Below, in pieces: positions 26,725 to 36,136 of a DNA stretch of 64,000 nt. How positions within the stretch are numbered: the first letter of the stretch is position 1; each line of letters begins with the position of its first letter. Origin of the DNA: Agrococcus sp. Marseille-Q4369 (lineage in GTDB: Bacteria; Actinomycetota; Actinomycetes; Actinomycetales; Microbacteriaceae); the NCBI RefSeq assembly GCF_018308945.1, contig NZ_CP070501.1, positions 806,001 through 870,000 on the forward strand, given 5' to 3'. A program made the position numbers and the translations under genes. Below the pieces are notes generated by a model. That model was not told the DNA's origin. It made no database searches and saw only the letters and a list, made by a program, of their open reading frames with translations.

Positions 26725-28586
26725 CAGCGCGTGCCCTCGGAGCGCTCCTCGCCCTCGATGAGGTCGTCGCCGAACAGCGCATCGCCGAACAGCGCGTCAT
26801 CGCCCGCGACAGCCATGTCGGCCTCGGACTCGATCGCGCTGGCCGACTCGCCCTCCGGCTCCGCCGGAGCCGGCTCCTCGACGACCGGCTCCTCGACGAC
26901 CGGCTCCTCGACGACCGGCTCCTCGAGCGCGTCGTCCGCGTCGCCGAGCGAGTCGGCCTCGCCCTGGGCCTCGTCGTGCGGCTCGTCCTCGCCTTCGGCG
27001 GCTTCCTCGTCGACCGGCGACTCGAGCCGCTCGGTCGTGATCACCATCTCCTCGAGCTCGCCCGGACGCAGCGCGTCCTCGAGCGCGTCGATCGCGCGGT
27101 CGGCGAGCTCGAACCACTCGGCCGCCTCCTCGTCGCGGCCGAGCTCCTCCAGCACGCCCCCGAAGCTCGCGAACAGCGCCGGGCTGTAGTCGAACGCCTT
27201 GTCCTTGCGCAGCTCGGGGATGCGCAGCTCCTCGAGCGCCGCCTCCTTCTGGCCGAGGTCGAGGCGCGCCCCCGACTTCACGATGGCGAGCTCGACGCGC
27301 ACCGGCGTCTCGAGCGTGGATGCGTCGACCGAGCGCGCGAGCTCGAGCGCCTTCTCGGGGCGGCCGAGTCCGCGCTCGCAATCGGCCATGAGCGGCAGCT
27401 GGTCGTCACGCCCGGTGATGCGGCGGTACGTGCGCAGCTCGCGGAGCGCGAGGGCGAAGTCGCCGAGCTGGTAGGCCGTGATCGCGAGCGTCTCGCGGAC
27501 GACGCCGATGCGGCCGGCGCGACGCGACGCGGCGAGCGCGTGCTGGTGCGCGAGCTCGGGATCCTCGTCGATGAGTCGCGATGCCATCGCCATGTGCTTG
27601 GCGACGAGCTCGGCGTTCTCCTTCGTCAGGGTCTTGAGCTGCGCGCGAGCGCCGATGTCGAGGTCTTCAGGCGCCACGTCATCGGGCAGGTGCGGCGGCA
27701 CGAAGTCGTCGTCGCGCACCTGCTTGAAGCTCTCGCCCGAGCCGTCGCCGCGGCGCTCGTAATCGCGACCCGGTCGCGCGGCGTCGCGCTGCGGGCCCGA
27801 GTTCCTCGAGCGCTGATCATCGCGTCGCTGCTGATCCCCGCGCCCGAAGCGCTCGCCATCGCGCTGCGGGCGACGGTCGCCATCCCGCTGGGGACGCGAG
27901 TCGCCGAAGCGGCGCTCACCATCGCGCTGCGGGCGACGGTCGCCATCCCGCTGGGGACGCGAGTCGCCGAAGCGGCGTTCACCATCGCGCTGCGGGCGAC
28001 GGTCTCCATCGCGCGGCGGACGGCGGTCGCCATCACGCTGCCGACGCGAGTCACGATCGAATCGGCGCTCGCCATCACGCTGCGGCCGACGATCTCCGTC
28101 GCGCTGCGGCCGGGAGTCGCCGAAACGGCGCTCACCATCGCGCGGCGGGCGACGATCGCCATCGCGCTGCGGGCGCGAGTCACGATCGAAGCGGCGCTCA
28201 CCGTCGCGCTGCGGACGACGGTCGTTGTCCCGCTGCGGACGCGAGTCGCCGAATCGACGCTCACCATCGCGCTGCGGTCGACGGTCTCCATCGCGCTGCG
28301 GTCGACGGTCTCCATCGCGCTGCGGGCGGCGATCACCGTCGCGCTGCGGGCGACGGTCGTTGTCGCGCTGCGGACGCGAGTCACCGCCCGGCCGGTACCC
28401 TGTGTCTCCGGGACGCAGCGGCTTCCGGTCGGCATCGCGCGACTGCCCACGGTCGTTCGAGCGCGATCCATCGCGCGAGGGCCGGCTGTCACCGAAGCGG
28501 CGGTCCCCGTCTCGCGGCGGTCGCCGGTCTCCTGCGTCGCGCCGGCGATCGCCATCGCGCGAGCTGCGGTCTGCCTTGTCGTTCAC
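26724..28586 (-). CDS. TPR-like protein with Arg/Asp repeat N-terminus and acidic C-terminus
   Basis: The 620-residue protein has three parts. Residues ~1-285 are a mixed-charge disordered region built from variants of RPQRDGDRR and RRFGDSRPQRD repeated more than twenty times. Residues ~295-520 are a helical repeat domain of tetratricopeptide type (AELVAKHMAMASRLI, then HALAASRRAGRIGVVRETL, GDFALALRELRTY, LGRPEKALELA). The last ~95 are acidic and include VEEPVVEEPVVEEP. The TPR part corresponds to mycobacterial Rv1691, a conserved protein of unknown function next to the HAD phosphatase. The N-terminus looks like an RNA-binding or condensate-forming segment (inference). The start is GTG at 28586. 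No signal peptide. Confidence 0.85.
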   Translation of the reverse strand: MNDKADRSSRDGDRRRDAGDRRPPRDGDRRFGDSRPSRDGSRSNDRGQSRDADRKPLRPGDTGYRPGGDSRPQRDNDRRPQRDGDRRPQRDGDRRPQRDGDRRPQRDGERRFGDSRPQRDNDRRPQRDGERRFDRDSRPQRDGDRRPPRDGERRFGDSRPQRDGDRRPQRDGERRFDRDSRRQRDGDRRPPRDGDRRPQRDGERRFGDSRPQRDGDRRPQRDGERRFGDSRPQRDGDRRPQRDGERFGRGDQQRRDDQRSRNSGPQRDAARPGRDYERRGDGSGESFKQVRDDDFVPPHLPDDVAPEDLDIGARAQLKTLTKENAELVAKHMAMASRLIDEDPELAHQHALAASRRAGRIGVVRETLAITAYQLGDFALALRELRTYRRITGRDDQLPLMADCERGLGRPEKALELARSVDASTLETPVRVELAIVKSGARLDLGQKEAALEELRIPELRKDKAFDYSPALFASFGGVLEELGRDEEAAEWFELADRAIDALEDALRPGELEEMVITTERLESPVDEEAAEGEDEPHDEAQGEADSLGDADDALEEPVVEEPVVEEPVVEEPAPAEPEGESASAIESEADMAVAGDDALFGDALFGDDLIEGEERSEGTR

Positions 28587-28650: not shown

Positions 28651-28660
28651 CAAAAGAAGT

Positions 28661-28777
28661 CCGGCGGTGTCCTACTCTCCCACAGGGTCCCCCCTGCAGT
28701 ACCATCGGCGCTGAGAGCCTTAGCTTCCGGGTTCGGAATGTGACCGGGCGTTTCCCTCTCGCTATGGCCGCCGAAAC
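28661..28777 (-). rRNA. rrf: 5S ribosomal RNA
   Basis: The minus strand starts GTTTCGGCGGCCATAGCGAG and contains GGGAAACGCCCGGTCACATT and CCGATGGTACTGCAGGGG. It ends GGACACCGCCGG, whose last bases pair with the 5' end. The ~117-base length is normal. It is the last gene of the 16S-23S-5S operon. Confidence 0.96.
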
Positions 28778-28870: not shown

Positions 28871-28888
28871 GCAAGCTCATGTATATGT

Positions 28889-33921
<5,033 letters not shown>

Positions 33922-34138: not shown

Positions 34139-34166
34139 ATGTTAGCCACTTCTCGGTCCGTGTCAA
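34139..34166 (-). promoter_or_regulatory. rRNA promoter P1 (proximal)
   Basis: On the minus strand, TTGACA (34161-34166), a 16-bp spacer and TAACAT (34139-34144). It is a near-consensus sigma-A promoter, closest to 16S. Its spacer lacks the palindrome present in the five upstream copies. Confidence 0.85.
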
Positions 34167-34228
34167 ATCGACACGCCGTGCGGAGTCTCGCTCGCGCCGG
34201 ACATCGACCGGCTCGTGGCAGCCCATTC

Positions 34229-34256
34229 AGGCTACACGCTCCGGAGCGACTGTCAA
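34229..34256 (-). promoter_or_regulatory. rRNA promoter P2
   Basis: TTGACA (34251-34256), a 16-bp spacer containing the palindrome CGCTCCGGAGCG, and TAGCCT (34229-34234) on the minus strand. First unit of a five-fold repeat with ~82-bp period. Confidence 0.8.
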
Positions 34257-34311
34257 GTCGGCGTCGGCTGGAGCCGGCTCGCTGTTCGGCCTGGCTCGTG
34301 GCAACCCGTTC

Positions 34312-34339
34312 AGGTTATACGCTCCAGAGCGACTGTCAA
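34312..34339 (-). promoter_or_regulatory. rRNA promoter P3
   Basis: TTGACA (34334-34339), a 16-bp spacer with CGCTCTGGAGCG, and TAACCT (34312-34317), overlapping an alternative TATAAC. Second repeat unit, 83 bp from P2. Confidence 0.8.
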
Positions 34340-34393
34340 GTCGGCGTCCGCGAGAGCCGGCTCACTGTTGGCCCGGCTCGTGGCAACCCGTTC

Positions 34394-34421
34394 AGGTTAC
34401 ACGCTCCGAAGCGACTGTCAA
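34394..34421 (-). promoter_or_regulatory. rRNA promoter P4
   Basis: TTGACA (34416-34421), a 16-bp spacer with CGCTTCGGAGCG, and TAACCT (34394-34399). Third repeat unit, 82 bp from P3. Confidence 0.8.
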
Positions 34422-34475
34422 GTCGGCATCTGCGAGAGCCGGCTGACTGTCAGTCCGGCTCGTGGCAACCTGTTC

Positions 34476-34503
34476 AGGTTACACGCTCCGGAGCGGCTGT
34501 CAA
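34476..34503 (-). promoter_or_regulatory. rRNA promoter P5
   Basis: TTGACA (34498-34503), a 16-bp spacer with GCTCCGGAGC, and TAACCT (34476-34481). Fourth repeat unit, 82 bp from P4. Confidence 0.8.
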
Positions 34504-34557
34504 ATCGGCTCCTGCTGCACCGGGCTCGCATTCGGCCCGGCTCGTGGCAACCTGTCC

Positions 34558-34585
34558 AGGTTACACGCTCCGGAGCGACTGTCAA
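34558..34585 (-). promoter_or_regulatory. rRNA promoter P6 (distal)
   Basis: TTGACA (34580-34585), a 16-bp spacer with CGCTCCGGAGCG, and TAACCT (34558-34563). Fifth repeat unit, 82 bp from P5. A perfect 20-bp palindrome lies 14 bp further upstream. Confidence 0.8.
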
Positions 34586-34599
34586 GTCGGTGTCTCGCT

Positions 34600-34619: not shown

Positions 34620-34837
34620 TGCTCTCCGCACATTCATCGTTGAAGTGGTCTGTCACCGCACCCGCGTCGCAGCCAGCACGCGATTGCGTGGGCCGTTCTG
34701 CTGGGGGTGGTCCCTCTTGATCCGCTGGCCTGTCCGGCTCGGCGTCTTTGGGGTGACGAGTGGATACGTTACACGGCTCGGGGACGCGGGCCGCAAACGA
34801 CGTGCATCCCGGGCGTGTCGCGCCGCTCCCCTGCGCT

Positions 34838-36136
34838 TCAGGCGCCGGCGTCGACGCCCGCGAGCGTCTTCTTGCCGCGGCGCAGCACGGCGAACCGCCC
34901 GTGCAGCAAGCGGCCCTCGAGCGTCGCGGCGGGGTCGTCGATGCGCTCGTTGTTGACCGAGACGCCGCCTTGAGCGATCGCGCGTCGGCCCTCGGAGAGG
35001 GAGTCGACGAGTCCCGTCTCCTGCAGCAGCTGCAGCACGGGCGCGTCATCGGTCGCGGTGGCCTGCCGGTCGAGCGAGCCGACGGCCGCCGCGAGGGTGC
35101 CGGCGTCGAGCGCCGCGAGATCCCCGGCGCCGAAGAGCGCCTCGGAAGCGGCGATCGCCTGCTCGGTCGCCTCGCGGCCGTGGATGAAGGCCGTCGCCTG
35201 CAGCGCGAGCTCGCGCTGCGCCTCGCGTCGGAACGGCGCCTCGACCGTTGCGCGCTCGAGCTCCGCGATCCGCGAGGACGGCAGGAAGGTGAACGACTTC
35301 AGCAGCTGGACGACGATCGCGTCGTCCTGGTTGAGCCAGAACTGGTACATCGCGTAGGGCGTCGTCAGGTTGGCGTCGAGCCACACCGCGTTGCCCTCGC
35401 TCTTGCCGAACTTCCGGCCGTCGGCATCCGTGATGAGCGGCGAGCCGAGCGCGTGCGCGTGCACGCCCTCGGCCTTGCGGATGAGCTCGGTGCCCGCGGT
35501 GAGGTTGCCCCACTGGTCGCTGCCGCCGAGCTGCATGATGCACCCGTAGCGCAGGAAGAGCTCGCGGAAGTCGAGCCCCTGCAGCACCTGGTAGCTGAAC
35601 TCGGCGTAGGAGATGCCCTCGTCGGACTCCATGCGCGAGGCGACCGCGTCCTTGCGGAGCATCGTGCCCACCCGGAAGTGCTTGCCGACCTCGCGGAGGA
35701 AGTCGACCGTCGAGAGGAGCCCTGTCCAGTCGAGGTTGTTCACGAGCCGCACGGCGTTGTCCCCCTCGTCGGAGAGGAAGCGCAGCATCTGCTCGCCGAG
35801 GTACGTGACCCACTCGGCGACGGTCTCCCGCTCGTTGAGCTGTCGCTCAGCGGTGGGCTTCGGGTCGCCGATCAGGCCCGTCGAGCCGCCGACGAGCGCG
35901 AGCGGCTTGTGGCCAGCGAGCTGCAGCCGGCGCATGATGATCAGCTGCGCGAGGTTCCCGAGATGCAGGCTCGGCGCGGTCGGGTCGAATCCGCAGTAGT
36001 AGGTGATCGGGCCGCCGCCGAGCAGCGCGCGCAACGCCTCCGGGTCGGTCGAGACGTGCACGCTCCCGCGGTACTGCAGCTCGTCCCAGACGTTGTCGAA
36101 GGCGGGGTCGAGCTGGATGGGAGCGAGGTCGATCAC
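34838..36136 (-). CDS. tyrS: Tyrosyl-tRNA synthetase
   Basis: The 432-residue class I synthetase charges tRNA-Tyr. The Rossmann domain has the HIGH-like SLHLGN (56-61) and, near residue 235, the KMSKS-like KFGKSEGN; YGCIMQLGGSDQWGN lies between them. The C-terminus carries an S4 RNA-binding domain (LVDSLSEGRRAIAQGGVSVNNERI). In actinobacteria tyrS lies just upstream of the TPR/HAD/tlyA block; here the rRNA operon is inserted between them. It follows argH by 19 bp on the same strand. Confidence 0.97.
   Translation of the reverse strand: MIDLAPIQLDPAFDNVWDELQYRGSVHVSTDPEALRALLGGGPITYYCGFDPTAPSLHLGNLAQLIIMRRLQLAGHKPLALVGGSTGLIGDPKPTAERQLNERETVAEWVTYLGEQMLRFLSDEGDNAVRLVNNLDWTGLLSTVDFLREVGKHFRVGTMLRKDAVASRMESDEGISYAEFSYQVLQGLDFRELFLRYGCIMQLGGSDQWGNLTAGTELIRKAEGVHAHALGSPLITDADGRKFGKSEGNAVWLDANLTTPYAMYQFWLNQDDAIVVQLLKSFTFLPSSRIAELERATVEAPFRREAQRELALQATAFIHGREATEQAIAASEALFGAGDLAALDAGTLAAAVGSLDRQATATDDAPVLQLLQETGLVDSLSEGRRAIAQGGVSVNNERIDDPAATLEGRLLHGRFAVLRRGKKTLAGVDAGA

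Follow-up and report, generated by a model that had tools for sequence, protein, structure and literature searches.

The only rRNA operon of Agrococcus sp. Marseille-Q4369 is preceded by five duplicated promoters of the housekeeping-sigma type, which, arranged in tandem between the proximal promoter P1 and a candidate distal promoter P0, probably keep this single operon supplied with RNA polymerase, raising or securing its rRNA output. The window analyzed, 64,000 nucleotides of contig NZ_CP070501.1 (positions 806,001 to 870,000), carries on its minus strand the 16S rRNA gene served by these promoters (32401-33921), followed downstream by the 23S (28887-31999) and 5S (28659-28775) rRNA genes, all located with Rfam. 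Directly upstream of the promoter region and in the same direction as the rRNA genes lies an open reading frame of 432 aa (34838-36136, minus strand), which, from its translated protein sequence, we take to be tyrS, encoding tyrosyl-tRNA synthetase; all six promoter sites described below are located between this putative tyrS and the 16S gene. The genome consists of one contig of 2,737,735 bp that contains only one 16S gene, so the operon, which the original prediction had supposed to be perhaps low-copy, is present once. Downstream of the 5S gene, positions 27849-28386 contain complex tandem repeats with periods of 24, 63, 90, 129, and 153.

The six TTGACA-N16-TANNNT sites that the original prediction had placed between 34139 and 34585 were all found on the minus strand, exact to the base, against 0.02 expected occurrences, a count of six being reached in none of 100 shuffles. 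The proximal one, P1 (34139-34166), reads TTGACA-N16-TAACAT and is followed by AGAGAA and a GTTGCC start box. Upstream of it stand five units of a second type, P2, all on the minus strand: unit 1, nearest to P1 (34229-34256, TTGACA-GTCGCTCCGGAGCGTG-TAGCCT, with the box GGCTGCC), unit 2 (34312-34339, TTGACA-GTCGCTCTGGAGCGTA-TAACCT), unit 3 (34394-34421, TTGACA-GTCGCTTCGGAGCGTG-TAACCT), unit 4 (34476-34503, TTGACA-GCCGCTCCGGAGCGTG-TAACCT), and unit 5, the most distal (34558-34585, TTGACA-GTCGCTCCGGAGCGTG-TAACCT). They are carried by a tandem array spanning 34208-34594 (minus strand; TRF period 82, 4.7 copies), in which they follow one another in steps of 82, 82, 82, and 83 bp. The identical five copies were returned in the window by a repeat search made independently of TTGACA. 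The proposed 82-83 bp repeat, and with it the duplication of promoters in an unbroken series of five, is thereby confirmed.

P1 and the P2 units show the features expected of housekeeping-sigma promoters, namely a TTGACA-like -35 element, a spacer of 16-18 bp, a TANNNT -10 element, and a position upstream of 16S. The P2 units share with the P1 promoters of the family a GTTGCC box located 6 nt downstream of the -10 element, with GCTGCC in unit 1. This unit (34229-34256) displays TAGCCT and GGCTGCC instead of TAACCT and GGTTGCC in all three array-bearing species, the dyad between the -10 element and the start box being kept. A generic sigma-70 scan called P1 and none of the P2 units, because the -10 element of the latter, TANNNT, is not close to TATAAT. 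No terminator-like site was found between the array and P1.

By analogy with the rRNA promoters of other actinobacteria, RNA polymerase with RbpA and CarD would bind each P2 unit, and transcription would start at or near the G of its GTTGCC box. The window genome contains an RbpA gene and two CarD-domain matches, in frames of 173 and 1194 aa, the longer of which is presumably Mfd. One polymerase in the open complex covers roughly the ~82 bp of the pitch, so that neighboring units could be loaded simultaneously and hold a row of polymerases; jointly, the units would keep the sole rRNA operon well supplied with polymerase, giving a higher or secured rRNA output. We infer that the array raises this output, bearing in mind that adjacent promoters may occlude one another and that a retained promoter need not be strong. 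No claim is made that all units share the same helix face, since their phase drifts along the array. The idea of 82 bp as a minimum pitch was abandoned on account of pairs of promoters 74 bp apart in Agrococcus and 63-68 bp apart in a genus represented by 148 genomes, which we take to be Mycobacterium.

A candidate for a seventh and most distal promoter, P0, which did not appear among the originally predicted sites, was recognized at 34766-34796 (minus strand) as TTGCGG-N19-TAACGT followed by CTCGTCACCCC. Of the 24 upstream regions read in Agrococcus, 11, belonging to 9 genomes, show a P0-like arrangement ahead of the marker CGTCACCC, hexamers and spacing having been read by eye across regions, and the candidate somewhat resembles distal sites of the family with the form TTGNCA-N17-TAATGT...TTGTCACCCC. 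Just after P0, a stretch at ~34665-34760 (minus strand) is well conserved in 11 Agrococcus regions, with CGTCACCCCAAAGACGC...GGATCAAGAGGGACCACC, and may be a leader RNA element.

Twenty-four genomes of the genus, including that of the window, were compared, 18 of which provided a usable stretch upstream of 16S, with one genome standing for each species. Among the upstream regions, 19 of 24 carry, 270-276 nt ahead of the 16S marker's end, a P1 with a TTGAC -35 element, whose start box is AGAAGTTGCC or alike; of the remaining five regions, one spans only 22 nt. Upstream of P1, the P2 units of the genus carry TAACCT and AGGTTGCC, in numbers that differ widely: four genomes (G001, G013, G021, and G023) have none, eleven have one or two, the window and A. 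pavilionensis have five each, and A. lahaulensis has at least nine, a lower bound due to a run of 150 N within its array. The second unit of both G006 and G007 is P2-like with a different spacer, and the second operon of G007 is preceded by P1 only. Upstream of 16S in G021 (L075, L076) and G023 (L040), a weak -35 element sits within an inverted repeat like CCGGA-TTTGN-TCCGG, unlike the P2 type.

Beyond the upstream regions, a scan of genome contigs with TTGACANNCGCTNNNNAGCGNNTANNNT matched 20 stretches, four of them from Agrococcus (nine matches in A. lahaulensis DSM 17612, five in A. pavilionensis RW1, one in A. terreus, and one in a MAG); each of the remaining 16 matched once, and the pieces scanned contained no 16S start. 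The P2 motif occurs in 7 of 398 genomes of the family, all of them Agrococcus. Across 398 genomes of the phylum, a strict pattern, which demands TTGACA and thus lets promoters with TTGACT escape, gave five matches in the window genome, where it misses unit 1, and never more than three elsewhere; apart from the array, sites closer than 100 bp were limited to pairs with distances of 90 and 87 bp, and no such cluster was detected by this pattern among those genomes outside the window genome.

Comparison among the three array-bearing species informs on the history of the array. Counterparts at three of its five places, namely the two distal units and the one adjacent to P1, are 95-100% identical across them, unit 1 of the window matching its counterparts in A. 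lahaulensis and A. pavilionensis at 99-100% identity, while the two middle units of the window and A. pavilionensis share 83 and 94% identity. Units inside the array of the window are only 69-88% identical to each other. Since these counterparts between species are more alike than units within the array of the window, these sequences indicate that the array most likely predates the species, its middle having probably changed somewhat later. The array of A. lahaulensis grew later by 166-bp dimers, its middle units being exact copies at 166-bp steps. A 16S tree built from 15 Agrococcus unites the three array-bearing species and places next to them G020, a genome with one P2 (support values of 0.76 and 0.94). 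G013, with sites exactly 83 bp apart and other spacers, and G023, with three related units of weaker -35 element as read by eye, seem to have undergone promoter multiplication independently.

Such variability in unit number between close species, together with the recent dimer copying in A. lahaulensis, is what would be anticipated if the array were a neutral by-product of unequal crossing-over, with only P1, and perhaps P0, producing pre-rRNA. This explanation is nonetheless quite unlikely when the divergence among units is considered. All five window units keep both TTGACA and TANNNT, their gapped linkers being only 54-83% identical, and divergence per site is 0.00 in the -35 element, 0.067 in the -10 element, 0.10 in the spacer, and 0.077 in the box region, compared with 0.42 over the 34 bp preceding the -35 element (0/20000 permutations), a test that is too kind, for it counts the -35 and TANNNT positions fixed by the pattern as well as the DNA ahead of the first unit, which is not a repeat linker. 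When restricted to four units with true 28-bp repeat linkers and to pattern-free positions, the comparison still yields in A. pavilionensis spacers that diverge far less than linkers (0.042 vs 0.333; 13/20000), with 0.083 for the 20 nt after the -10 element (45/20000). In the window, the corresponding contrast between spacer and linker is weak and alone not significant (0.125 vs 0.274; 1173/20000), which leaves some room for neutrality, and the 20 nt after the -10 element diverge by 0.100 against the same linker value of 0.274 (401/20000). No decayed units were found in the arrays, whose steps of 81-83 bp are unbroken except for the N gap. Thus, judged from sequence, the copies seem to be held by selection, and each unit most likely works, the evidence for this being good, although not overwhelming.

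What selection holds in the spacers was then considered in relation to the palindrome CGCTCCGGAGCG, on which the original prediction had built a regulator binding between the -35 and -10 elements. The palindrome is perfect in three of the five spacers and one base off in the other two, and the P1 spacer, CGGACCGAGAAGTGGC, is non-palindromic. A dimeric regulator sitting on this dyad and repressing or activating each P2, with P1 left unregulated, would explain its presence in some form in 5/5 units, and a 12-bp perfect palindrome within a 16-bp spacer has a chance of only ~0.002; moreover, among the 23 distinct units out of 35 P2 units, 115 of 138 pairs are kept, slightly above column shuffles (mean 110.6, reached in 22/2000), with rows that include related copies. 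On the contrary, when one P2 per species is taken, the proximal one, across the 14 Agrococcus species with a P2 of the TTGAC-N16 type (the four genomes without P2 being excluded), the dyad is perfect in only 4/14, and pairing equals the shuffles, with 68 of 84 pairs kept for a shuffle mean of 67.7 reached in 977/2000. The anticipated conservation of the palindrome in other species therefore largely fails, and no pair presents two complementary types among these 14 species, as compensating changes would. CGCTCCGGAGCG alone, with one mismatch allowed, is not rare in the window either (6 occurrences vs 3.0 expected, six being reached in 9/100 shuffles), and the spacer pattern, searched in the window genome with up to three mismatches, gave seven matches, five of them in the array and two lacking TANNNT, so that matches with a -10 element are confined to the array. 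The right end of the spacer, CGTG, which adjoins the -10 element, is invariant and the left half varies, a distribution that fits one-sided promoter contacts better than a symmetric operator. A regulator on the dyad is accordingly very improbable, and the spacer sequence would rather be kept as part of the promoter itself than as a palindromic operator.

Other dyads and controls added little to this point. CGACT-N4-AGTCG, around the -35 element, equals shuffles (58/70 pairs, mean 57.9, 1172/2000). AACCT-N4-AGGTT, from the -10 element to the start box, exceeds them (66/70, mean 61.3, 4/2000) and was not built on, because the excess apparently reflects one event, unit 1 in the three array-bearing species. 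The P1 spacer is also conserved (1.5 bits per site vs 1.69 for P2), but it says little as a control since the 40 bp upstream of P1 are conserved as well (1.44 vs 0.65 for P2).

Within the preferred reading of five working promoters that keep the operon supplied, a compatible variant is that the array serves chiefly as a buffer, in polymerase loading or in regulation, against noise, shifts, or stress, and not toward a higher maximal output. Output from stacked strong promoters is expected to saturate, and P1, P2, and P0 differ in their -10 elements and start sequences, which would suit a buffering role; the P2 units are, however, much alike, leaving little room for differing control. In M. fortuitum, all rRNA promoters other than rrnA-P1 are reported to change under stress (PMC2443159). 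On balance, a mainly buffering array is conceivable but rather doubtful.

Tandem rRNA promoters are already described in single-rrn actinobacteria, and the Agrococcus array is a larger and regular version of them, with a copy number that varies between species. The corresponding reports describe five promoters for the rrnA operon of M. chelonae, where the duplication of promoters is discussed along with how few operons can reach maximal rRNA synthesis (PMC10218544), one rRNA operon in this same species (PMC6418233), and, for M. fortuitum, five rrn promoters over two operons, with rrnA-P1 contributing <1% of pre-rRNA (PMC2443159), a caution that a promoter may be retained and yet be weak. The hypervariable multiple promoter region of mycobacterial rrnA likewise sets several promoters in a row in a single-rrn actinobacterium, while the Agrococcus array differs from it in having a regular 82-83 bp unit in 5 to at least 9 similar copies, whose number differs between sister species. 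Two mapped starts are reported for each of the three rRNA operons of P. acnes (PMC3848588). Tandem starts upstream of 16S are found in P. acnes, as well as in E. coli and B. subtilis, but as two promoters and without a repeat array.

The GTTGCC start box recurs in the genomes of the putative Mycobacterium genus, which also contain promoter pairs at distances of 63-101 bp, none of the 148 having more than three matches to the strict pattern, which misses weaker promoters, so that five-promoter operons can escape it. The window genome agrees with the mycobacterial style, marked by one or two rrn operons per genome, in having a single one, and also in multiplying promoters by duplication. Its P2 duplications are not shared with mycobacteria by descent, the near-16S P2 motif having been found in the contig scan only in Agrococcus, which makes it an independent case that works alike. 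The repeated promoter copies upstream of the rRNA unit in eukaryotes, as in the spacer promoters and enhancer repeats of Xenopus rDNA, involve another polymerase and mechanism and provide an analogy only. Among the titles listed in a literature search, none was on such a promoter array.

The relation between operon number and promoter number was also considered. Among one-contig Agrococcus genomes, those with a single rrn operon (G000, G002, G006, and G023) have 6, 3, 3, and 3 promoters near 16S, and those with two (G001, G017, and G021) have 1-2 per operon; in this tally, G021, G023, and one G017 operon were read by eye, P0 is excluded, relatedness is uncorrected, and G012 was left out, its second 16S being a fragment. 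In other genera of the family, none of 21 single-rrn genomes among those listed has more than two promoters, the counts covering near-consensus promoters only. This family sample comprises one-contig genomes with a 16S among those listed; G061 and G089 (one contig, one 16S), many two-rrn genomes, 14 loci, and G112 lie outside it, and G187 was read for one of its two operons. The association of low rrn number with more promoters thus holds weakly in Agrococcus and does not in the wider family sample. A separate observation is that a P1 with TTGAC[AT] and the start box occurs, among the operons listed, in 19/21 single-rrn operons and in 8/31 operons of two-rrn genomes (Fisher 4e-6, for an incomplete sample uncorrected for relatedness); a -35 element close to consensus seems to be preserved where the operon is single.

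A standing question is how one rrn operon can cover the rRNA demand of a bacterium, and the present analysis removes as unsupported the tempting idea of a regulator on the spacer palindrome. As close species of Agrococcus hold 0, 1, 2, 5, and at least 9 copies, promoter number becomes a testable variable, and the copy series asks whether stacked strong promoters add, saturate, or buffer. We would tentatively propose, as a possibility still to be taken with reserve, that the rRNA promoter has here become a repeat unit, an evolvable dial that may tune the ribosome output of a single-rrn bacterium without copying the operon, and whose pitch would let every unit hold a polymerase at once.
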